Shown here: positions 8,101-26,476 of the stretch, in pieces
Layout: every line of letters begins with the position of its first letter
Numbering within the stretch: position 1 is the first letter of the stretch
Origin: Cyanobacterium stanieri LEGE 03274
GTDB lineage: Bacteria; Cyanobacteriota; Cyanobacteriia; Cyanobacteriales; Cyanobacteriaceae
DNA: 64,000 nucleotides
Assembly: GCF_015207825.1 (NCBI RefSeq)
Contig: NZ_JADEWC010000016.1
Location: 1-64,000 of the forward strand
Direction of reading: 5' to 3'
Notes under the pieces: model-generated
What the model was told of the DNA's origin: nothing
Database searches by the model: none
The model's input: only the letters and a program-made list of their open reading frames with translations
Program-made: the position numbers and the translations under genes

Positions 8101-11100
8101 TTATGGTTTATTTTGTTTTAGTTGATTTGCTTCTTGGGTGTAGTTTCCTTTTTCGTAGTATTTGATGGCGGTTTCGATGTCGTCCATTTTTAGACAGGCT
8201 TGGGCGGCTTTTCGCCAGTTGTTTAAGAATGTCCATAGTTGTGCGGCTTCTTCCCATTTTCCTTGATGTTCGCATACTTGGGCTAGTTTTTCCCAGTTGG
8301 ATAGTTTTCGCCAACATTCTTCGGCGTTTTCCCAGTCTTGAATTTTTTCGTAGTAGGTGACGGCGGTTTCTAGGTTATCGGCTTTTACCCAGGCATCGGC
8401 GGCTTGTTTCCATTTTTGTTGATATTCGCAGACTCGGGCTAGTTGTTCCCATTTCCATGATTTACGCCAACATTTTTCGGCGTTTTCCCAGTCTTTTAGT
8501 TTTTCGTAACAGAGGGCCGCTTTTTCGGGGTTATCGTTTTGGAGATGGGCATCGGCGGCTTGTTGCCATTTTTGTTGATGTTCGCATACTTCGGCTACTT
8601 TTTCGTGGTTGTTGGCTTGAAGCCAATATTTTTCAGCTCTTTCCCAGTCTTCACATTTTTCGTAGCAGAGGGCTGCTTGTTCTATTTGGTTTGATTTTAG
8701 CCAATCGTGGGCGGCCATTACCCATGTGCCTTGTTGTTTGATGGCGGTTTCTATTTTGCTTTCGTTATTGAGGATACGCCAACATTCTTCGGCTTCGCGC
8801 CAGTGGTTGCCCATTTCAAATACGAGGGCTGCTTTTTGTATTTCTCCTGTTTTTTCCCATGCTTTTCCTGCTTTTTTCCATTGGGCTAATTCTTGCCAAA
8901 TTTCGGCGGCTTGTGACCATTTTTCTTGTTTTTCGAGGGTAAGGGCGATCGCACTTTGTTCGTCTAAGTGACGCCAACAGATTTCCGCTTCTGCCCAAAA
9001 GTTACCTTGCTCATAACAAAGGGCTGCTTTTTCCATTTCGTCAATGGTTTGCCATGCTTTCCCTGCTTTATACCATTCCCCTAAATTTTCCCAGCTTTCG
9101 GCGGCTTCATCCCATTTTTGTTGTTTTTCGGTGCAAATAATGCTTTGACTCCAATTATTGGCTTTTAACCATGATTCTTTGGCTTTTTCCCAATTTTCTA
9201 GTCTTTCATAACATAGGGCTTGTAGTTCGTAGGGGCTTGTTTTTGCCCACATGGAGGCTGCCTCTTGCCATTTTTTTTGTTGTTGAAGGGCGATCGCCAC
9301 ATAGCCCCAATACTCCAATTTTCGCCACAAATCCTCCGCCAAAACCCATTCATTGGCATTTTGATAACAAAAACCAGCCCGTTGTAAATCCCCTTGTTTT
9401 TGCCAAACTTCGGCTGCTAATACCCATTCTTGCTGAGATTCATAGGATAGGGCTAAATTTTCCCATTTACCCAATTCTAGCCAACATTTTTGAGCCTCTG
9501 ACCATTTTTGAGCCTTTTGCCAACAGTCGGCCGCCCGTTGAATATCTCCTTGTTTTTGCCAACAATTTCCTGCTTTTTCCCACTGCTCTAGTTTTTCCCA
9601 AATTAAAGCAACTTTATCTAACTTTTCTAGTCTTGTCCACATTTTGACAGCGGATTGAAATTGTCCTTTTTCTTGATAATATTTATCCGCTAAATCATAA
9701 TAATATTGAGCTTGAGATGAAAGATTTTTTTCTTGACATTTATCCCCTGCTAATTCCCAATCATCATTGGCTTCAAAACAACGTAATTTCCCAGCAAAAT
9801 CATTGGCTTTATCATAACAAAAATTAGCTAAATCAAAATCTTTTTTCTCCTCAAAATATAACCCCCTTTGACTCCAACTCTCAGGCTTCGTAGTCGCCCA
9901 TTTAGCCTCCCATAACTTATTATCAACTTCATTCCAACAACGAATCGCTTCATCAAAAATAAATAATTTATTCCAAATATCTCCAGCCCTACCCCAATTT
10001 CCTTTCACTTCCTCGAGTAAAGCCTCAATTTTAGCTGCTCCCAAAATATCATTGGCTTGAAAATAAATTTGACTACAAATTTTATAGGCTTTATAGGAGC
10101 AAAATTGTAAATATTCTTCGATAATATTATTAATTATTGGTTCATCATCTTCCGTAAAAAAAGGCTTTAGCTCTGTGGGATAGCCCAACTCAATTAAATT
10201 AGTTAAATGATGATTATTCCATAAAATAACATCATTTTTATCATAGAAATAGACTTTTTCTTTAGCAGATCTTAGGGCGATAAATAAATCTTGATAAAAT
10301 TGCTCGTCCTCTAATAATTCTTGAGCAGACATGGAGATTTTATTTTCAAAGAAATTCCATATTAATATCCCATCAAATTGTAAGTTATTAATTTCATTAA
10401 CCATTAAAATTCTTTCACTGTCTTGGGGAAATAAGCCTGTTAAATATTCCTTATCTATGTTATTTTTAACTATTATGGCATTAGCTCCCGAAAATCGATT
10501 TCCTTGAGCAAATATTTCATCTTCTCTGCCATACACTACTAAGGGTTTAGAATTACTTTTTAACCAAGATTCATTGGTCTGAAAAATAATATCTTCTTGA
10601 TTTTGATGATTAATTACTAATTCAACAATGAAGTTAATAAGATTAGTAATTTTATCACTGGTACAAAAATTATAATTAATATATTGAGGTTCAAGGGCTG
10701 GACGAATTGTTTTCCACTGAGGGGATTTTAAGTATTCTTCAATGGCAATTTTTTTCACTCTACCCCAATTAAAACTACCTCTTATTAAGGATGAATTATC
10801 TTCTCCAATGATAAATAATTGAGGAATATATTCTTGTTTATTTTCTATTTTTAAAAGAGTGAATACAAGTTGTATTTCAATTTCGCTCAATTCCTGTACA
10901 TCATCAAGATAAATTGAGTCATATTCTCCTAAATAATTGTCAGGTAATTTTTTTAAAATATATTGTACTAAATCTATTTTATCCCAATAGTTATTATTTT
11001 CTAACCATTGTTGATAGTTATTGGCATATTTATATATATAATTAAAGTTACTATTAGAAGGGAATAAACTTTGGTTTTTTAATGCTAAATAGTCGTTATA

Positions 11101-12018
11101 GCTAATTAATCCTTGACTATTTTTTAAGGATTTACTAGCACCCTTAATTAATTGTTGAATTTCTCTCCATAGTAAATCAATATCTATGGATTCTATGGTT
11201 TGTTCTTTACAAAAGTATTCTTTAAATTTATATTCTGTTATTTGTCTTTGGGCTAAAAATTGATTTTTACTTTTAAATTCTTTTTCTGCTACAAATGTTT
11301 TGAGAAATGAATGGTAATCTTTAATTTGTAAATTTTTTAAGGAGTGTTTATTAAATAGTTTAACTAGGTTATTAAGTTTTTTTTCTTCCTTGGGAGTATT
11401 GGTAAAAAATGCTGTTTTATATTCGGGATTACTTTGATGTTTATTATTTTGCGTTAGGGCATGATATAGGGATAAGGTGCTTTTTCCTGTGCCTTTATTG
11501 CCTGAAAGGATGATGGGAAGATTTTTATTGGTTTGGAGGAAGTCTTTTTGTTGTTTGGATAGGGCGACGGGAATATACTTGAGGGGATTAATATTTAGGT
11601 TATGTAAATAAAAGTCGTTGGCTTCTTGGGTTGTATTGGTGATTAATAGGTTATTAATTGTGAAATTAAAATCTATTTTATTGATTATATTTTCTTCTAT
11701 ATGTTGATTTTTTTCTTTGATAAAATCAATTATTTTATGATGATAGGGATAGTTATCTAATTCAAGGTTTTCCTGTGATGCAAAGCCTATTAATTTTATT
11801 GTTTTGTGGGAAGGTAGGGATAAGCCAATAATGTAATTATTTTGATTTAAATTTATTTTAATGATTGTTTTCTGCTCATGGATAATAGGGGAAAAACTCT
11901 TTTCTTCTGTGATATTTGTTGTAATAGTTTCTCTAATTTTGCTCAATAAATAATAATTTTCTTGAGCATTTAATCTATTTAGTTGATTCCAAAAGGAAAA
12001 AGAGAAAGTTATATCCAT
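8101..12018 (-). CDS. Giant UvrD/SF1-like helicase with C-terminal Trp-rich helical-repeat array
   Basis: A 1305-residue protein in three parts. Residues 1-105 resemble, weakly, a RelE/ParE-like fold of the kind often seen before UvrD domains. Residues about 150-620 form an SF1 helicase core: Q motif LSKQQKDFL, Walker A GNKGTGKST (173-181), Walker B YLDDVQE (370-376), a motif-III-like GEDNSSLIRGSFNWGRV, and motif VI LRSAKEKVYFY with Arg583. Residues about 650-1300 are TPR-like repeats with a period of 52 residues near the end (pattern VCExQxKW.AA...W..A......YEK..DWE.AE.CW). The array is unusually Trp/Cys/Glu-rich and resembles vesicle-coat or IFT-type solenoids. The kinase gene lies 129 bp upstream. 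Function unknown; DNA repair, defence or complex assembly are all possible. Confidence 0.75.
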   Translation of the reverse strand: MDITFSFSFWNQLNRLNAQENYYLLSKIRETITTNITEEKSFSPIIHEQKTIIKINLNQNNYIIGLSLPSHKTIKLIGFASQENLELDNYPYHHKIIDFIKEKNQHIEENIINKIDFNFTINNLLITNTTQEANDFYLHNLNINPLKYIPVALSKQQKDFLQTNKNLPIILSGNKGTGKSTLSLYHALTQNNKHQSNPEYKTAFFTNTPKEEKKLNNLVKLFNKHSLKNLQIKDYHSFLKTFVAEKEFKSKNQFLAQRQITEYKFKEYFCKEQTIESIDIDLLWREIQQLIKGASKSLKNSQGLISYNDYLALKNQSLFPSNSNFNYIYKYANNYQQWLENNNYWDKIDLVQYILKKLPDNYLGEYDSIYLDDVQELSEIEIQLVFTLLKIENKQEYIPQLFIIGEDNSSLIRGSFNWGRVKKIAIEEYLKSPQWKTIRPALEPQYINYNFCTSDKITNLINFIVELVINHQNQEDIIFQTNESWLKSNSKPLVVYGREDEIFAQGNRFSGANAIIVKNNIDKEYLTGLFPQDSERILMVNEINNLQFDGILIWNFFENKISMSAQELLEDEQFYQDLFIALRSAKEKVYFYDKNDVILWNNHHLTNLIELGYPTELKPFFTEDDEPIINNIIEEYLQFCSYKAYKICSQIYFQANDILGAAKIEALLEEVKGNWGRAGDIWNKLFIFDEAIRCWNEVDNKLWEAKWATTKPESWSQRGLYFEEKKDFDLANFCYDKANDFAGKLRCFEANDDWELAGDKCQEKNLSSQAQYYYDLADKYYQEKGQFQSAVKMWTRLEKLDKVALIWEKLEQWEKAGNCWQKQGDIQRAADCWQKAQKWSEAQKCWLELGKWENLALSYESQQEWVLAAEVWQKQGDLQRAGFCYQNANEWVLAEDLWRKLEYWGYVAIALQQQKKWQEAASMWAKTSPYELQALCYERLENWEKAKESWLKANNWSQSIICTEKQQKWDEAAESWENLGEWYKAGKAWQTIDEMEKAALCYEQGNFWAEAEICWRHLDEQSAIALTLEKQEKWSQAAEIWQELAQWKKAGKAWEKTGEIQKAALVFEMGNHWREAEECWRILNNESKIETAIKQQGTWVMAAHDWLKSNQIEQAALCYEKCEDWERAEKYWLQANNHEKVAEVCEHQQKWQQAADAHLQNDNPEKAALCYEKLKDWENAEKCWRKSWKWEQLARVCEYQQKWKQAADAWVKADNLETAVTYYEKIQDWENAEECWRKLSNWEKLAQVCEHQGKWEEAAQLWTFLNNWRKAAQACLKMDDIETAIKYYEKGNYTQEANQLKQNKP
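8107..10071 (-). repeat. Degenerate tandem repeat encoding the solenoid (156-bp period)
   Basis: The coding DNA for residues about 650-1300 of the large UvrD-like protein is a degenerate tandem array. In the best-preserved C-terminal units the period is 156 bp (52 codons), with recurring minus-strand text for DWENAE(K/E)CWRK and (V/Y)CE(H/Y)QQKW. Divergence between units argues for old duplication rather than a recent expansion. Confidence 0.65.
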
Positions 12019-17079: not shown

Positions 17080-17110
17080 CATTGTCAATTGTCCATTGTC
17101 CATTGTCAAT
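17080..17110. repeat. Heptamer-type repeats upstream of holB
   Basis: Tandem TTGTCAA/TTGTCCA units lie just before the holB start. Translated in frame they give a spurious N-terminal extension (SIVHCQF). Confidence 0.65.
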
Positions 17111-17115
17111 TTTTT

Positions 17116-18054
17116 ATGAAGCCTCTTGCGAAATTAATTGGACAACCCTTAGCTGTAGAATTGTTAGAAAGGGCGATCGCCATTAACCGCATTGCCCCCG
17201 CTTACTTGTTTGTAGGGGCGAAGGGGGTGGGAAAGGCCTATGGGGCGAGATGTTTTGCGGAAATGTTGATGATTCGCCCGGAGGATGATTATGGTGTGAT
17301 GGTGCAAAAAATACAGGCAGGAAATCATCCCGATTTTCTTTGGGTAGAGCCTACATACACTGATAAAGGTGAACTGATTACCGTCTCAGAAGCTCAGGAA
17401 CAGGGTTTAAAGCGAAAAAATGCTCCCCAAATCAGAATTGAGCAAATCAGGGCAGTCAGTCAGTTTTTGGCTCGTCCACCCCTGAAAGCGCCTCGCTCGG
17501 TGGTAGTAATTGATGATGCGGAGTTGATGGCGGAGTCGGCGGGGAATGCTTTGTTAAAAACTCTGGAGGAACCAGGGAGGGCTACTATTATTTTAATTGC
17601 CTCTAGTGTGGATGCGATTCTTTCTACCCTTGTGTCTCGTTGTCAGATAATTCCTTTTTCTCGTTTGACGGAAGATGATGTTGCCTATGTATTACAGCGA
17701 CAAAATGCAGGGGATGTGTTGCAATATCCTCAGTTAATTAAGTTGGCACAGGGTTCTCCAGGTAAGGCTATGGGCGATCGCACTAAGTTGTTAGAAATAC
17801 CATCAGATTTACTTTCTAGGTTATCTCAACTACCCCTAAGGGCGATCGAGGGATTCCACCTGGCTAAGGAAATTAGTGAGGGTTTGGAATTGGAAACCCA
17901 ATTATGGTTAGCGGATTATTTACAGTCTGTGTATTGGGATAAACAAAGGAATATGGAAATCATTGAGAGTCTCGAAAGGGTTAAAGGTGCGCTGAAAAAC
18001 TATGTCCAACCCCGCCTCGTTTGGGATTGCTTTTATCTACATTCTATTACTTAG
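17116..18054 (+). CDS. holB: DNA polymerase III delta-prime subunit
   Basis: A clamp-loader subunit of the replicase, 312 residues from the ATG at 17116 (MKPLAKLIGQPLAVELLERA). The frame stays open upstream to 17089, but those nine codons are heptamer repeat, so I reject the longer start. An AAA+ domain is visible: a modified P-loop (VGAKGVGKAYGA, with Ala where Ser/Thr normally follows the Lys), NALLKTLEEPG, and sensor SRCQIIPFSRL. A degenerate P-loop is normal for delta-prime, which does not hydrolyse ATP. It is divergent from recQ with a short spacer. Confidence 0.92.
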   Translation: MKPLAKLIGQPLAVELLERAIAINRIAPAYLFVGAKGVGKAYGARCFAEMLMIRPEDDYGVMVQKIQAGNHPDFLWVEPTYTDKGELITVSEAQEQGLKRKNAPQIRIEQIRAVSQFLARPPLKAPRSVVVIDDAELMAESAGNALLKTLEEPGRATIILIASSVDAILSTLVSRCQIIPFSRLTEDDVAYVLQRQNAGDVLQYPQLIKLAQGSPGKAMGDRTKLLEIPSDLLSRLSQLPLRAIEGFHLAKEISEGLELETQLWLADYLQSVYWDKQRNMEIIESLERVKGALKNYVQPRLVWDCFYLHSIT

Positions 18055-18498: not shown

Positions 18499-19260
18499 AT
18501 GGATAATACAAGTTTAGGAGAACACTTTTTTGAATACTTCAATATATTCGTCGCAAACACTCAAGAATTAAAAGAACAAGTCTTCAGAATTAGGTATCAA
18601 GTATATTGTCAAGAATTAGGTTACGAACCTTTAGAAAACTTTCCTGATTCAATGGAAAGAGATGCCTACGATAACAGGTCAATTCATTGTATTTTGCAAC
18701 ATAAATCTACGGGAATTTATGCAGGGTGTGTGCGTCTAGTTTTATCAAATACCAGCGATATAAATGATCGTTTTCCCTTTGAAAGTGTCTGTCCAAATCA
18801 TAGTCTTGATTTTAGAAAAATACCTAGAACAAAAATAGGAGAAGTATCACGATTAGCAGTTATTTCCCGTTTCCGAAAAAGAGCAGGGGAACAAAATACT
18901 CCCGATGGTTTAATCGTTTTTAACAACAGAAATAAAGAAGAAATTAGAGAACAGAGAAGGCGTTCATCTGTCATTGCCTTAGGGCTTTATTTAGCGGCCA
19001 CTGGTTTAGTTATTGATTTAAGCCTTAGTCATGGTGTAACCCTAATGGAACCGAGATTAGCCCGACATTTACGTATGAGTGGTTTAATAGCTCATCCCAT
19101 TGGTAGTCTTGTGGATTTCCACGGCAAAAGAGGCCCCTATATCATGGATAAAGACGAAATTGTTAGCGCTTTTGGCTCTAACGTAGAGGTATATCATCTT
19201 TACCAAAAAATACTTAATACCTTAAAAAAGGGCTTTTCTTATCATTCTTGTATTGCTTAA
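18499..19260 (+). CDS. PEP-CTERM/exosortase-associated acyltransferase (N-acyl amino acid synthase-like)
   Basis: 253 residues of the GNAT/autoinducer-synthase-like fold. The family signatures are VFRIRYQVYCQELGYEP near the N-terminus, a Glu-rich EVSRLAVISRFRKR strand in the middle, and an EPRLARHLRMSG C-terminal segment. This is the acyltransferase family that marks exosortase/PEP-CTERM genomes and includes long-chain N-acyl amino acid synthases, which join a fatty acyl-ACP to an amino acid such as tyrosine. The acyl acceptor here is unknown. Neighbours fit: a VAO-type flavoenzyme follows (406-bp gap) and a PEP-CTERM protein lies 2 kb on. No exosortase is in the window. Confidence 0.85.
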   Translation: MDNTSLGEHFFEYFNIFVANTQELKEQVFRIRYQVYCQELGYEPLENFPDSMERDAYDNRSIHCILQHKSTGIYAGCVRLVLSNTSDINDRFPFESVCPNHSLDFRKIPRTKIGEVSRLAVISRFRKRAGEQNTPDGLIVFNNRNKEEIREQRRRSSVIALGLYLAATGLVIDLSLSHGVTLMEPRLARHLRMSGLIAHPIGSLVDFHGKRGPYIMDKDEIVSAFGSNVEVYHLYQKILNTLKKGFSYHSCIA

Positions 19261-19667
19261 TTGTTTATGACTTATTTTCTAATCAAAGTAATACTATATT
19301 CACTATCATTTGTTAGTTTAATTTAGGATTTTTATTTTATCAATGAATAATTGTCTATAGAAAACTTAGTAAATATTATAGATATAAATTATCGTAATAA
19401 TTTCTATTACTTAATTGACTAACAACAAAAGTAAAAAGTTATCAAATATAGCTTAATATACAGACATTTTTTTAAAATAATAATAATTACAAAAAAGGTA
19501 CTTTAATAGAAAGATAATGAATAGTTTTGGCAAACATTGAATTAAATTGATAAAAATAAAGTTAGTAGTAATAAGTTTAAGTTGTACAAATAACTAAATA
19601 TCTATAAAAATAAAAAACATAAAATAATTTAAAATATAATTATGTTCCACTACCCCAAACAAATATT
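19261..19667. other. Very AT-rich intergenic region
   Basis: 407 bp of mostly A/T with no ORF, tRNA or repeat that I can define. TATAAT-like hexamers near 19636 could serve the downstream flavoenzyme gene. The composition is unlike the coding regions around it. Confidence 0.5.
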
Positions 19668-21263
19668 ATGGATATTGAACAAGCCGTTCATTTTTGGAGA
19701 GATATATTAACCCCAGAAAATGTCATTACTCAACAATCAATACTAGAAGAAAAAGCAACTGCCACATATTTAACTGATAAAAAAATTTCTACCGTATTAC
19801 GTCCTAGAAATGCTCAAGAAATACAAAAATGTTTACAAATAGCAAATAAATACAAAATTCCTATTTATCCTGTTAGCACAGGCAAAAACTGGGGCTATGG
19901 ATCAAAAGTACCTACGGAGAATAATTGTGCCTTAATGGAATTGACAAAGATGAGTAAAATCATTGATTTCAACGAAGAATTGGGTTACGTTACCATTGAA
20001 CCAGGGGTTACTCAAAAACAACTCTATGAGTTTTTACAAGAGAAAAAATCGAATCTTTGGCTAGACTGTAATGCTTCCTCTGTAGAAAGTAGCCTGATTG
20101 GTAATACCATGGAGCGGGGATTTGGGCATACTCCCTATGGTGATCATTTTGCCCATGTTTGCGGTTTAGAAGCCGTTTTACCCACAGGGGAAATCATCCA
20201 CACAGGATTTGGCAAATTCGGTAATGCTACTGCGGCGCCTGTTTATCGTTGGGGATTAGGCCCGTACTTAGATGGACTTTTTACCCAGTCTAACCTAGGT
20301 ATTGTTACGCAGATGACTTTTTGGTTAATGCCAGCACCTGAACACTTTGAAGCATTTTTCTTTAGTGTCCAAAGGGATGATCAACTAGCTGATTTAATAG
20401 ATGCTTTACGCCCTCTCCGATTAGATGGCACCATAAAAAGTGCGGTACATATCGGTAATAGTTATAAGGTATTATGTGCCTTGCGGCAATATCCTTGGGA
20501 GGAATCCAAGGGAGTTACACCATTACCCGATGAGGTGTTAAATCAGTTTGCTAAGGATTGGGATTTTGGAGCATGGAATGGTTCAGGAGGTATTTATGGA
20601 ACAAAAAAACAAGTTGCAGAGGCAAAAAGATTAATTAATAATGCCCTCAAAGGAAAAGTTCGCCGAATCCAGTTTTTGGATGATCGCACCATAAAACTTG
20701 CCGATGGTATTGCTAAACCTTTTCAAAAGATAACAGGTTCTCATTTGCCAGAATTACTAGACCTAATGCACCCCGTTTATGGATTAATGAAAGGTGTACC
20801 TACTAGCACCCAGTTAGCTAGTACCTATTGGCGCAAAAAAACGCCTATTCCCCAAAATCCTGACCCTGATCGAGATGGTTGCGGTTTAATCTGGTGCGCC
20901 CCTGTCGCACCCTTGTTGGGAAGCCATGGGGCAAAAATTAACCAGATTGTCCGAGAAACCTTACTCAAATTTGGGTTTGAGCCTCAACAGTCTATCACCC
21001 TATTAACGGAAAGGGTACTTGATTGCGTCATTACCATTGGCTATGATCGAGATATACAAGGAGAAGATCAACGAGCTTTGGAATGTTATGAAGAGTTGAT
21101 GGATAAACTAACCACCAATGGTTATTACCCCTATCGTTTAGGTATCCATTCCATGAAAACCATGAATAAAGGAGAAGATAGTTATAATCAACTACTCAAA
21201 CAACTAAAAAGTACCCTCGACCCGAACAACATTCTCTCACCAGGGCGTTATTCCCCAGAATAG
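19668..21263 (+). CDS. FAD-linked oxidase, 4-cresol dehydrogenase / vanillyl-alcohol oxidase type
   Basis: 531 residues. It has an N-terminal PCMH-type FAD-binding domain (about 35-220: YPVSTGKNWGYGSKVP; then GYVTIEPGVTQKQLYEFL and GLEAVLPTGEIIHTG). The C-terminal cresol-dehydrogenase-type domain contains GLIWCAPVAPLLGS, the ALECYEELMDKLTTNGYYPYR region and the ending LDPNNILSPGRY. Known members oxidise para-substituted phenols at the benzylic carbon and are often covalent flavoproteins. The substrate here is unknown. Because the upstream gene resembles N-acyl-tyrosine-type synthases, an acylated phenolic substrate is plausible; that is inference. No signal peptide, so cytosolic. Confidence 0.85.
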   Translation: MDIEQAVHFWRDILTPENVITQQSILEEKATATYLTDKKISTVLRPRNAQEIQKCLQIANKYKIPIYPVSTGKNWGYGSKVPTENNCALMELTKMSKIIDFNEELGYVTIEPGVTQKQLYEFLQEKKSNLWLDCNASSVESSLIGNTMERGFGHTPYGDHFAHVCGLEAVLPTGEIIHTGFGKFGNATAAPVYRWGLGPYLDGLFTQSNLGIVTQMTFWLMPAPEHFEAFFFSVQRDDQLADLIDALRPLRLDGTIKSAVHIGNSYKVLCALRQYPWEESKGVTPLPDEVLNQFAKDWDFGAWNGSGGIYGTKKQVAEAKRLINNALKGKVRRIQFLDDRTIKLADGIAKPFQKITGSHLPELLDLMHPVYGLMKGVPTSTQLASTYWRKKTPIPQNPDPDRDGCGLIWCAPVAPLLGSHGAKINQIVRETLLKFGFEPQQSITLLTERVLDCVITIGYDRDIQGEDQRALECYEELMDKLTTNGYYPYRLGIHSMKTMNKGEDSYNQLLKQLKSTLDPNNILSPGRYSPE

Positions 21264-21308: not shown

Positions 21309-22121
21309 TTAGTTTAATGCTTTTGCTTTTTTCTTTTTTAATACGGTCATTGAACCGAGGAAACCGAAAGCTATTAAGCCACCAATGGCCGAAGGTTCAG
21401 GGGTCGTCACTTGTCTTCCGATCTGCCATACACCCGTATAACTCGCCGAACCAGATGATGGAAGAAATGTATCGGGATTTGCTTCTAACTGAGCAATACT
21501 AACATTTTGCAAAGCCGCTTCAACATTTGGGGTAAATCTACCAGTAGCTTTAAAAATATCCCCAGTTATGTTGTCGGTAAAAATCCCTGACACATCAAAA
21601 GCTATTTGATTGAGAGTGGAGCTAGGATCAGCAATATCACCATTTAATAAAAGTACCCTCTGAATACTGTCTAACTGAATACCAAAATTCAATAATCCTC
21701 CAGCCCCAGTATTGTTAAATGTCATGAAGTTAGCAACCGAGTTGTTAGGATTAGCATTATTTACGATAGGGCCTGCTTGAGTGATTGTTGTACAAACTAT
21801 GGCTGGACAGTCCGCCGCTCTTAAGTCAAGAATAGAACCGTTACCGCCTGTTCCAATACCATCTATACCATTTGCAAAGTCTGTACCGTTAGTTGGTGTA
21901 TCTGAAGTAATCCTGAAACCCCCTGCAACGTTTGGAGTATTAGCTGTAGTTACCGGAGGACCAGTAAAATCAAATTGAGCTCCCGTGAAGTATAAGTTTC
22001 CTGTGAAATTAAATTGATCTCCAGTAATAATAGCTGCATCAGCCATTGTAGTGTGCGCGAAGATTCCAGTAAATGCCAAAGAACCTACAGCTAAATATTT
22101 TCCTAGTGTGTTACCAACCAT
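21309..22121 (-). CDS. PEP-CTERM sorting-signal protein (exported, unknown function)
   Basis: 270 residues. It has an N-terminal signal peptide (hydrophobic about 9-24, Ala-rich cleavage region ADAA) and a secreted beta-type body rich in Gly, Thr, Asn and Phe (repeats such as FNFTGNLYFTG and AQFDFTG). The C-terminus is a classical PEP-CTERM tripartite signal: TPEPSAIGG, a hydrophobic helix, and a KKKK tail. Such proteins are processed by an exosortase and delivered to the surface or matrix. The body matches no domain I know. A strong RBS (AAGGAG, 9 nt before ATG) supports the start. It faces the flavoenzyme gene across a terminator. Confidence 0.88.
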   Translation of the reverse strand: MVGNTLGKYLAVGSLAFTGIFAHTTMADAAIITGDQFNFTGNLYFTGAQFDFTGPPVTTANTPNVAGGFRITSDTPTNGTDFANGIDGIGTGGNGSILDLRAADCPAIVCTTITQAGPIVNNANPNNSVANFMTFNNTGAGGLLNFGIQLDSIQRVLLLNGDIADPSSTLNQIAFDVSGIFTDNITGDIFKATGRFTPNVEAALQNVSIAQLEANPDTFLPSSGSASYTGVWQIGRQVTTPEPSAIGGLIAFGFLGSMTVLKKKKAKALN

Positions 22122-22860: not shown

Positions 22861-24009
22861 GTGAAAACTCCTTTAGCGTGGTTACAACTAAGCCATGAAA
22901 GAATGCGATTGTTGATTGCCTTAGCGGGTATTGGCTTTGCTGATATACTCATGTTTATGCAATTAGGTTTTCGAGGGGCTTTATTAGATAGTGCTACCCT
23001 TATCCATGAAAAAATAGAAGCTGATTTGGTGTTGATTAGCCCTCAGTCTGAGGCTATACATTTAATGAAGCCTTTTTCCCGTCGGGGTTTATATCAAACA
23101 TTGCACTTAGAAGAAGTGGAATTCGTTGCGCCGATTTATATTAGTTTGGGTGATTGGAAAAACCCTGAAACTGGCCAAGTGAGAACAATTATGGCTATGG
23201 GTTTTAATCCTTCCCATTCTATTTTGGACTTACCTTTGGTTAATAAAAATTTGGATGAAATTAAGTTATCGGATACTTTTTTATTTGATGTGGCTTCTCG
23301 CCCTGAGTTTGGCAGGGTTGAAAGTTTATATGAGAGTCAAGGTGAGGTAAAAACGGAGATTAATAATCGAAATATTAAGGTAAATGGTTTATTTTCCCTT
23401 GGTCCTTCTTTCGCGGTGGATGGTACAGTAATTACCAGTGATACAAATATTTTACGAACTTTCCCCGAGCGTAGTAGTGGTAATATTGAGGTTGGGTTAG
23501 TTAAGCTCAAGGATAATGTAGATCCTTTAATGGTTAAGGATAGGTTAAATTCTTTTTTGGGTGCTGATGTGCGGGTACTTACCCATCAAGAGTTTATCGA
23601 TTTTGAGCAAGGTTATTGGTCTAATAGTACGCCCATCGGTTTTATTTTTTTGTTGGGGGCTGGTATGGGTTTTGTGGTGGGTACGGTGATAGTATATCAA
23701 ATATTATATGCTGATGTTTCGGATCATTTACCTGAGTATGCTACCCTCAAGGCGATGGGATATGGGGATAATTATTTTTTGGTGTTGGTATTTCAGGAGG
23801 CGATTATTCTAGCTATTTTGGGTTTTATTCCTGGTTTCTTGATTTCTTCTGGTTTATATGGTTTAACGAAGACTGCTACGGCTTTACCTTTAGCTATGAA
23901 GGTTTCTCGGGTTGTGATGGTTTTACTCTTAACTATTATTATGTGTTTTATTTCAGGGGCGATCGCCGTTAGAAAATTAAAAGATGCTGATCCTGCTGAT
24001 ATATTTTAA
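22861..24009 (+). CDS. devC: DevC-type ABC exporter permease (orphan)
   Basis: 382 residues, with a GTG start at 22861 (KTPLAWLQLSHERMRLLIALAG, a family-typical N-terminus). One membrane helix is near the N-terminus (about 17-37), then a large periplasmic domain (about 45-260), then three C-terminal helices (about 262-282, 308-332, 345-370). This is the MacB/FtsX-like topology. DevC works with DevA (ATPase) and DevB (membrane fusion protein) to export glycolipids or other compounds in cyanobacteria. Neither devA nor devB is adjacent, so it is an orphan here or pairs with distant subunits. Proximity to the acyltransferase/flavoenzyme genes raises the idea of lipid-like cargo; that is inference. 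Confidence 0.9.
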   Translation: MKTPLAWLQLSHERMRLLIALAGIGFADILMFMQLGFRGALLDSATLIHEKIEADLVLISPQSEAIHLMKPFSRRGLYQTLHLEEVEFVAPIYISLGDWKNPETGQVRTIMAMGFNPSHSILDLPLVNKNLDEIKLSDTFLFDVASRPEFGRVESLYESQGEVKTEINNRNIKVNGLFSLGPSFAVDGTVITSDTNILRTFPERSSGNIEVGLVKLKDNVDPLMVKDRLNSFLGADVRVLTHQEFIDFEQGYWSNSTPIGFIFLLGAGMGFVVGTVIVYQILYADVSDHLPEYATLKAMGYGDNYFLVLVFQEAIILAILGFIPGFLISSGLYGLTKTATALPLAMKVSRVVMVLLLTIIMCFISGAIAVRKLKDADPADIF

Positions 24010-24664: not shown

Positions 24665-26476
24665 TCAAATAGGGTGGAAGTAGTCGTAAATATTTTGAGC
24701 CAAATTAGGCCCGATACCATCCACCCCTTGAATTTGCTTTACACTGGCTTCCCTGATGTAATCCACCGAGTGAAAATGGGCTAAGAGACGTTTTTGGCGT
24801 TCAAAGCCTAAGCCCTGGATTTGGTCAAGTTGCGATCGCCTCGAAGCCTTTAATCGTTGTTGTCGGTGGAAGGTAACAGCGAAACGGTGAGCTTCATCCC
24901 TTAACCTCCTCAATAATTGTACCCCTGCTTGTTCGGCATCCGTAGGCAAAGGTTGGGATTGTTTGGGTAAAAATATCTCCTCCCTTTTTTTCGCTAAACT
25001 AATTACTTTCAGCTTACCTGTTAAATTTAACTCCTCTAACACCTCCCACACCGCCGAGAGTTGCCCTTTTCCGCCATCAATCATAATTAAGTCAGGATGG
25101 GGGTCATTGCCCGAAAAACGCCGTCTAATCACTTCCTGTAACGATAAAAAGTCGTCGGAATGTCCAATGGTGATGGTGGGGTTTTTAATTTTGTAGTGGC
25201 GATAATATTGTTTGGCAGGTTGTCCATCGATAAATACCACCCTAGAAGCCACGGCATTGGAACCCTGAAGGTGGGATATATCATACCCTTCGATATGCTT
25301 AGGAAGGTGTTTTAAACCGAGAATTTGGGCTAAATCCTCCATAGCTTCGAGGTTTACGAGGACGGATTTTTGGGTTTTTTCCAATTCAATGTGGGCATTT
25401 TTTTTCACCATGGCGATTAATTCCGCCTTAATTTGTCTTTGGGGGTTAATGATGGTGATTTTTTTGCCTGTTTTTTCTCCTAACCATTTCATCAATATTT
25501 CCGCATCCTCGAGGGGATGTTGTACCAAAATTTCGGAGGGAATTTCTAAGGGTTCAATTTGTTGATAATGTTGTTCTAATACCCTTTGTAAGATTTCCCC
25601 CGCCTCGGTTTCCTTACCACTATCGGTGTAAAAGCCCAATCTACCCACCAAACGCCCTGCCCTAATTTGAAATAGTTGAATGCAAGTATGTTGTTCATCT
25701 TGGGCAAGGGCGATCGCATCCTGGGATATGGTATCGTCAGGCAAGGCTACCTTTTGGGTGGCAAATAATTGCTCTAAACTGTGGATTTGATCTCGATATT
25801 TTGCCGCCTTTTCAAAGTCAAGATTTTCCGCCGCCTTTTCCATTTGTTGCCGTAACTGATTGATTAGTTCATTTGTCCTCCCTTGAAAAATAAGAGCAAT
25901 TTTTTGGATGGTTTGTTGATATTGTTGAGGCGAAATGAGGTTTTGACATACCCCAGGGCATTTTCCCATATCATAATTTAAGCAGGGTCTATCTTTATGT
26001 AACGGCTTGGGGCGCTGTCTGAGGGCAAAATTATTTTTAATTAAGTCGAGGGTATGCCGTAATCCCCTTGTATCAGTATAGGGCCCATAGTAGCGATCGC
26101 CCTTACTTTTTACCCTTCTTTTACGGGTGATAAAAATGCGAGGATATTTTTCAGACCAAGTAATACACACATAAGGATACTTCTTATCATCTTTGAGCAA
26201 CACATTAAAATGGGGTTGATGTTGCTTGATTAAATTCGCTTCTAATGCCAGGGCTTCGGCTTCGGTGTCGGTGACAATAAAATCAATATCCCGTATCTGA
26301 GATACCATCAAGGCAATACGGTTACTATGTCTCTGGGAGGGGGCAAAATAGGATGATACCCTTTTGCGTAAATTTTTTGCCTTACCTATATATAATATCT
26401 CCCCGGTGCGATCGCGCATAAAATAAACCCCCGCATCGGAGGGCAAATCCTTTAATTTCGGCAACTGATAATTCAC
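24665..26476 (-). CDS. uvrC: Excinuclease ABC subunit C
   Basis: Makes the dual incisions in nucleotide excision repair with UvrA and UvrB. The 603 residues are close to the usual 610. It has an N-terminal GIY-YIG nuclease (about 14-90: [20 protein letters not shown]), a Cys-containing linker ([13 protein letters not shown]), a UVR coiled UvrB-binding motif (about 205-240), an RNase H-like C-terminal nuclease ([30 protein letters not shown]) and paired helix-hairpin-helix motifs at the end ([20 protein letters not shown]). Start ATG at 26476. A PPOX gene is transcribed divergently 63 bp away. Confidence 0.97.

Follow-up and report, generated by a model that had tools for sequence, protein, structure and literature searches.

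What is made by a pair of adjacent genes, one encoding an acyltransferase related to synthases of N-acyl amino acids and the other a flavoenzyme related to oxidases of para-substituted phenols? The question is raised by a locus in Cyanobacterium stanieri LEGE 03274 (assembly GCF_015207825.1; a genome of 3.19 Mb, numbered G000 here), lying within the first 64,000 nucleotides of contig NZ_JADEWC010000016.1. This whole stretch is called the window. An initial annotation of the window had proposed that the two genes could form a new acylated-phenol pathway. Both of its open reading frames (ORFs) are found where it placed them, on the same strand, encoding proteins of 253 and 531 amino acids, and the genome contains no further strong relative of either. 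The flavoenzyme belongs with vanillyl-alcohol oxidase (VAO), and VAO is used below for this enzyme and its relatives. The pairing of the acyltransferase with the VAO is more than chance and is well supported. N-acyl-tyrosine would fit both enzymes, and we lean towards a reading in which the two genes belong to a cassette that would make and export an oxidised N-acyl aromatic amino acid, probably an N-acyl-tyrosine, with oxidation at the benzylic carbon.

Assignment and linkage of the two genes

The first gene had been placed in the exosortase-associated acyltransferase family, and its product indeed scores 239.4 bits against TIGR03694 ('PEP-CTERM/exosortase system-associated acyltransferase'), for which the curated cut-off is 111.95. 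It also exceeds the Pfam cut-offs for Acetyltransf_5, Autoind_synth and FeeM (PF21926; 30.3 bits, cut-off 27). In an AlphaFold2 model of moderate quality (pLDDT 62) the top solved fold is that of FeeM (2g0b, Z 12.8), tied to within 1 unit of Z with N-acyl homoserine lactone (AHL) synthases and arylalkylamine N-acetyltransferases. The two characteristics of a FeeM-type synthase, a FeeM domain above cut-off and a FeeM-like fold, are thus both present. The protein is predicted to be an N-acyl amino acid synthase, the acceptor of which would most probably be tyrosine.

Relatives were sought in samples of 388 genomes of the order, 386 of the phylum and, at E 1e-150, 388 of the class. Within the order a VAO relative is found at E 1e-40 or better in 36 genomes, 14 of which have one that is 61–100% identical. 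TIGR03694 is found above its cut-off in 18 genomes, with a truncated match in one other (G386). All 14 genomes with a VAO of at least 61% identity fall among these 18, and among the remaining 22 VAO genomes TIGR03694 reaches E 1e-20 in G574 alone. The acyltransferase gene lies directly before that of the VAO in 11 of the 14 (G000, G056, G388, G131, G159, G594, G602, G600, G634, G623 and G588), while in two more (G510 and G531) one RND-like ORF alone stands between them. TIGR03694 is above cut-off in 4/386 genomes of the phylum sample, in all four with a VAO beside it. The class sample gave six matches, five of them already known and one, in G804, new and outside the order; in this genome 2 bp separate the end of the acyltransferase gene (135.9 bits) from a VAO with 49% identity. 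With ORF starts called mechanically at the first start codon, the borders of the two genes overlap by 20 bp in G056 and 11 bp in G388, and leave a space of 3 bp in G634 and G623. Overlapping or 2–3 bp borders in these five genomes suggest a single transcription unit. The initial annotation had made its proposal depend on linkage in other genomes, and that linkage is conserved both within the order and, in G804, beyond it.

An unrooted tree was calculated for 27 VAO sequences (26 aligned, together with that of G804). The 15 VAOs from acyltransferase genomes are set apart from the rest by a branch supported at 100/99 and present in 99% of bootstrap trees, counting in that of G493, where the two genes are unlinked, and that of G804, which is on a long branch. 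Ten of the 36 VAO genomes of the order (G604, G652, G019, G574, G628, G491, G123, G111, G554 and G172) were left out of the tree, as were G053 from the phylum sample and the additional VAO copies of G510, G623 and G567. A tree to which the highly divergent extra VAO of G510 had been added was discarded, since its long branch upset the rooting. The other 12 rows come from genomes with no TIGR03694 at E 1e-20 genome-wide, one of which (G278) has a weak match below cut-off elsewhere in the genome (41.8 bits). No TIGR03694 was found around these 12 VAOs, in longer stretches for nine and in flanks of ~1.5 kb for G560, G595 and G542. Across 13 genomes the distances between acyltransferases and between VAOs are correlated, with a Pearson coefficient of 0.84 (Mantel p 0.0005) and one of only 0.52 by Spearman, shared species history being included in these values.

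The flavoenzyme and its candidate substrate

The flavoenzyme contains a FAD_binding_4 domain (Pfam). Its closest relative of solved structure is p-cresol methylhydroxylase (PCMH; 1wve and 1dii, E 4e-85), followed by eugenol oxidase (E ~1e-68) and VAO itself (E ~1e-59), and the matches to D-lactate and glycolate oxidases are far weaker (E 5e-18 or worse). The earlier assignment to the VAO/4-cresol-dehydrogenase type is therefore confirmed: the protein aligns with the branch that oxidises 4-alkylphenols, and not with the sugar or lactate oxidases to which its loss would have spoken against the proposal. Y77, Y489 and R490 align with Y95, Y473 and R474 of PCMH, its phenolate-binding residues. This Tyr/Tyr/Arg triad is complete in all 14 rows of the linked clade in the alignment and in all five rows of the nearest sisters. 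Of seven more distant rows three have the triad; the other four have Leu or Phe at position 77, one of them with Asp at 489 in addition. Covalent attachment of the flavin is to His422 in VAO and to Tyr384 in PCMH. Tyr387 of the window enzyme is invariant in 26/26 rows and is located near the position expected for Tyr384, in a stretch that is unaligned to PCMH. No gene for a cytochrome c partner was found among 13 genes scanned in the window or among the annotated recurrent genes of the operons, a search that did not extend genome-wide. An AlphaFold model of the flavoenzyme based on an alignment of four rows was too poor (mean pLDDT 44.5), and was rejected without a fold search.

The case for a phenol draws further on the nearest sister VAOs. 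These are 46–48% identical to the window enzyme and come from six genomes, all of which lack TIGR03694 at E 1e-20. Genes connected with aromatic rings lie near them in five of the six, whereby a phenolic substrate is independently favoured. In G097 the neighbours scanned comprise a DpgA-like type III polyketide synthase (PKS), modules of type I PKS, an FMO and a methyltransferase of ICMT type, and the same clustered genes are present in G278, G590 and G604. The type III PKS of G097 is below the NCBIfam cut-off as DpgA-like, and above the Pfam cut-off for the chalcone/stilbene domain. In G450 (L090:5008-12584) a lyase of aromatic amino acids is accompanied by an AMP-binding ligase, a weak GNAT match and an ORF that combines MatE with type I chorismate mutase.

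Two sets of these loci may be noted in their own right. The cluster of a sister VAO with PKS genes recurs at L077, L076, L091 and L092, at three of which (L077, L091 and L092) there are also MFS and RND-like ORFs; its product is probably a phenolic lipid. The G450 locus has the look of a cyanobacterial pathway of phenylpropanoid type.

VAO relatives at E 1e-40 are also present in 35 records of a plasmid collection, all less than 60% identical. The best (35%) is encoded on a plasmid of Candidatus Megaera polyxenophila (L165:5989-7599), with transposase genes nearby; no match to the acyltransferase was found in the 13.6 kb around it.

Surroundings of the pair

The features of the locus are collected in Table 1. 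The description of the region as unusually AT-rich applies to the intergenic stretches, with a GC content of 23.2% upstream of the pair and that of the table between the genes; it does not apply to the genes themselves (35.6% for the acyltransferase and 40.0% for the VAO, compared with 37.1% for the window), and the remark carries no weight. Promoter-like sites (19 observed, 21.0 expected from shuffles) and terminator-like sites (3 observed, 2.6 expected) are about as numerous as in shuffled sequence; one of the terminator-like sites is just 3′ of the VAO gene.

Table 1. Features of the window at and around the acyltransferase–VAO pair
Feature	Position	Strand	Basis or remark
DNA polymerase III delta' (holB), left flank; cassette edge in G000, G056 and G388	17089..18054	+	
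N-acyltransferase of FeeM-like type (TIGR03694), predicted synthase of N-acyl amino acids	18499..19260	+	Profile and fold matches
Intergenic gap, 407 bp, 17.4% GC	19261..19667	.	No detectable remnant of a second acyltransferase
VAO/PCMH-type FAD enzyme, predicted 4-alkylphenol (N-acyl-tyrosine-type) oxidase	19668..21263	+	PDB match, phenolate-binding residues
PEP-CTERM-type protein, convergent with the flavoenzyme gene	21309..22121	-	C-terminal pattern
ABC exporter permease of DevC type; may serve export in the cassette	22861..24009	+	TIGR01185, 523.7 bits
uvrC, right flank; cassette edge in G000, G056 and G388	24665..26476	-	

The window has one TIGR03694 gene, and in G056, G388 and G131 such genes stand in tandem pairs. 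No trace of a decayed second acyltransferase was detected in the gap, neither blastn against G056 nor tblastn with three acylB proteins giving a significant match there; that a second gene was lost is inferred from the relatives only. The operons of G600 and G588 encode an extra protein of ~255 amino acids with a sub-threshold match to FeeM (22.5 and 15.7 bits respectively, cut-off 27), relatives of which were identified by clustering in G510 and G531, with no Pfam match. In G510 (L083:14094-17852) such a protein, itself without a match, is followed by a 39%-identical VAO and then by a PhyH-type oxygenase, a possible second pairing.

Exporter genes accompany the pair in a number of the relatives. 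An HlyD-type ORF and DevC follow it in six genomes (G594, G602, G600, G634, G623 and G588), and in all but G588 a DevA-like ATPase ORF follows as well. The HlyD domain was scanned in G594, and DevC exceeds the TIGR01185 cut-off in G594, G600 and G588. An RND-like ORF is found in G510, G531 and G493; this label, like that of the DevA-like ORF, derives from clustering and inspection of one sequence. Of the DevBCA set (devB, devC and devA together) the window contains devC alone. A DevC is also present near the VAO in G056 and G131, with 92% and 72% identity to that of the window. In a FastTree tree of 26 DevC sequences these three group together, apart from the operon DevCs (local support 0.96, several other nodes being weak), which does not support an orthologous relationship of the window DevC to the operon DevC. 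The DevCs of G387 and G151, two members of the family that lack the pair, group elsewhere in the tree.

The protein of the gene convergent with that of the VAO terminates in a PEP motif, a hydrophobic stretch and a basic tail, recognised by a pattern of our own; it has no Pfam or NCBIfam match at E 0.01. Such a PEP-CTERM-type gene adjoins the VAO, convergent with it, in G000, G056 and G388, and is convergent at a distance of ~2.3 kb in G131. An exosortase gene is located elsewhere in the G000 genome.

The cassette lies between holB and uvrC in G000, G056 and G388, and the flanking genes and the cassette differ in their closest relative. In protein identity to the window, holB, uvrC and recQ are at 95.9, 96.2 and 98.6% in G388, and at 90.4, 92.6 and 90.9% in G056. 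For the VAO the identities are 76.9% in G388 and 90.6% in G056, and for the first acyltransferase 59.7% and 75.1%. The DevC between the flanks is common to the window and G056 (92%) and is missing from that place in G388, a genome not searched for DevC as a whole. The flanks are thus nearer to G388 but the cassette is nearer to G056, which suggests that the cassette has been exchanged horizontally at a fixed chromosomal place.

Elsewhere in the window, at 8101-12018 on the minus strand, a gene encodes a protein of 1305 amino acids, the C-terminal half of which consists of many short W-rich units that resemble one another; its GC content shifts along the gene.

A candidate pathway, its alternatives and known systems

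In the pathway that we favour the acyltransferase would take a long acyl chain from acyl carrier protein or coenzyme A and attach it to the amino nitrogen of an aromatic amino acid, of which tyrosine is the most probable. The product, an N-acyl-tyrosine, would be a para-alkylphenol lipid. The VAO-type enzyme would hold it as the phenolate through Tyr77, Tyr489 and Arg490, and hydride transfer from the benzylic carbon to FAD would generate a p-quinone methide. This could become N-acyl-2,3-dehydrotyrosine, add water to give a β-hydroxy compound, or lose CO2 to give an aminovinyl-phenol. The product might leave the cell through a DevBCA-type ATP-binding cassette (ABC) exporter or an RND-like pump, and would have some tie to the PEP-CTERM/exosortase surface system. 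We infer the acceptor, product, electron acceptor, mode of export and biological role from gene content and context.

Several observations weigh against this scheme. TIGR03694 carries no substrate-specific motif, and members of the family could acylate other amines. In four of the 18 TIGR03694 genomes (G400, G530, G574 and G580) there is no VAO of the linked clade and the acyltransferase stands without one in the stretches examined, so that it has a function apart from this VAO; in G493, one of the 14, it is on another contig, with an RND-like ORF still preceding the VAO. The co-occurrence counts include related genomes. The window pair itself is more loosely arranged than in its relatives, its two genes being 407 bp apart where the other ten directly adjacent cases have at most 144 bp from the nearest acyltransferase. 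The triad is not specific to pairing with an acyltransferase, since three of the seven distant VAO rows, with unannotated context, have it too. All 14 rows of the linked clade have Leu407 at the position of the FAD-binding His of VAO, as placed by eye from its motif; the enzyme may be an oxidase or a dehydrogenase, with FAD bound covalently or not. Two neighbours of the sister VAO in G300 were scanned, revealing one methyltransferase and no aromatic-ring gene. Finally the window DevC lies outside the DevC clade of the acyltransferase–VAO–HlyD–DevC operons, making its role in the cassette uncertain.

Some of these points would be accommodated if the acyltransferase produced an N-acyl amino acid or amine that is not phenolic, as is reported for some relatives, and the VAO had shifted to another reaction in that lipid, such as oxidation of an alcohol or amine; the two would still form one pathway, though not a phenolic one. 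The acceptor is not fixed by the family, the protein also resembles AHL synthases and, weakly, models of ornithine acyltransferases, and the Leu at the FAD-histidine position would be in keeping with altered chemistry. Against this, the phenolate-binding residues are complete throughout the linked clade and the sister VAOs have aromatic-ring genes nearby in five of six genomes, and we consider such a lipid rather unlikely. A different division of labour is suggested by the name of the family: the acyltransferase might serve the PEP-CTERM/exosortase system, in signalling or modification of surface proteins, with the flavoenzyme a mere neighbour acting on a phenol of its own. The PEP-CTERM-type gene beside the VAO in three genomes, or a few kb away from it as in G131 and certain others, the exosortase in the genome and the four genomes with an acyltransferase and no linked-clade VAO would all agree with this, and a connection of N-acyl amino acid synthases with PEP-CTERM systems is reported in the literature. 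It is nevertheless unlikely, for TIGR03694 exceeds its cut-off in only four of the 386 cyanobacteria of the phylum sample, each with a VAO, and the borders of the two genes overlap or lie 2–3 bp apart in G056, G388, G634, G623 and G804.

The order of the reactions might also be reversed, the flavoenzyme acting first on a phenol derived from tyrosine, such as tyramine, or on another 4-hydroxyphenyl compound, the product of which is then acylated, or two acyltransferases might place two chains on one head group. The tandem acyltransferases of G056, G388 and G131 and the sub-threshold FeeM protein in the operons of G600 and G588 could be read in this way. Nothing speaks directly against it, the order of the genes neither proving nor excluding an order of reaction; we think it very improbable all the same.

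Oxidation of an N-acyl-tyrosine by the VAO remains our preferred reading. A bolder form of it is conceivable, and is offered tentatively. The cassette would then define a new class of exported cyanobacterial lipids, N-acyl tyrosines oxidised by a VAO via a quinone methide, in a non-homologous replacement of nitroreductase and ThiF. It would be exchanged at a fixed site and consist of one or two synthases, the oxidase, an ABC or RND-like pump and a PEP-CTERM surface protein, with a function in competition or biofilm signalling. If N-acyl-tyrosine oxidation is correct, cyanobacteria would gain a family of lipids built on N-acyl aromatic amino acids, open to direct testing in Escherichia coli through two genes, and there would be a second, unrelated enzymatic solution for oxidising N-acyl-tyrosines. 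The VAO flavoenzymes, a family known mainly from catabolism and biocatalysis, would acquire a biosynthetic role, and there would be a concrete way to ask why TIGR03694 acyltransferases travel with the PEP-CTERM/exosortase system.

The known systems resemble the pair in part. In structure the acyltransferase matches best FeeM, the N-acyl-tyrosine synthase of the fee cluster from soil environmental DNA. The flavoenzyme shares its sequence family, FAD_binding_4 domain and phenolate-binding Tyr/Tyr/Arg with PCMH, eugenol oxidase and VAO. It differs from them in the Leu (placed by eye) at the FAD-His position of VAO, in a context of biosynthesis and export and in having no cytochrome gene among its annotated neighbours.

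The producers of thalassotalic acid, kyonggic acid and stieleriacine have a synthase gene with ThiF and nitroreductase genes, and the products of such nasY clusters are reported from Pseudomonadota, Actinomycetota and Planctomycetota (PMC12479983); the available main text of that paper contains none of the words oxidase, FAD, cresol and cyanobacteri. A 2022 review called the enzyme forming N-acyl-dehydrotyrosine unknown and listed the oxidative decarboxylation of N-acyl-tyrosines to aminovinyl-phenols (PMC8762209). The acylated-phenol pathway proposed at the outset is partly supported, by the linkage, the VAO family, the phenolate residues and the aromatic context of the sister VAOs, but its claim to be new has to be narrowed, as N-acyl (dehydro)tyrosines are already known (PMC12479983, PMC8762209). 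A literature search of openly licensed PMC papers found none that joins a cyanobacterium with an N-acyl tyrosine, which is weak evidence of absence.

The 13 genes scanned in the window (12.1–30.3 kb) and the annotated recurrent operon genes include no nitroreductase and no ThiF, non-recurrent neighbours in other genomes being only partly annotated; the arrangement of TyzACB and nasY clusters, with a nitroreductase-family oxidase and ThiF beside the acyltransferase, is thus not that of the window. The nasY clusters described in PMC12479983 are similar in combining a synthase with a flavin-type oxidoreductase, in yielding 2,3-dehydrotyrosine lipids and in having several synthase genes per strain; they differ in using ThiF and a nitroreductase, where the window pair has a VAO-type enzyme in a cyanobacterial host. 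The Tyz, Trz and Oxz pathways (PMC12856293) follow a similar logic. In OxzAB, TyzACB and TrzAS an acyltransferase forms an N-acyl aromatic amino acid, which a co-encoded flavin-dependent oxidase then desaturates. The oxidase there belongs to the nitroreductase family, uses FMN and is paired or fused with a ThiF cyclase, whereas the enzyme here is a FAD enzyme of VAO/PCMH type. The published N-acyl dehydrotyrosine routes considered here rely on an oxidase of the nitroreductase family together with ThiF. Pathways of this class are known, and the features that appear to be new within the literature searched are the enzyme of VAO type, the host group and the linkage to an exporter.

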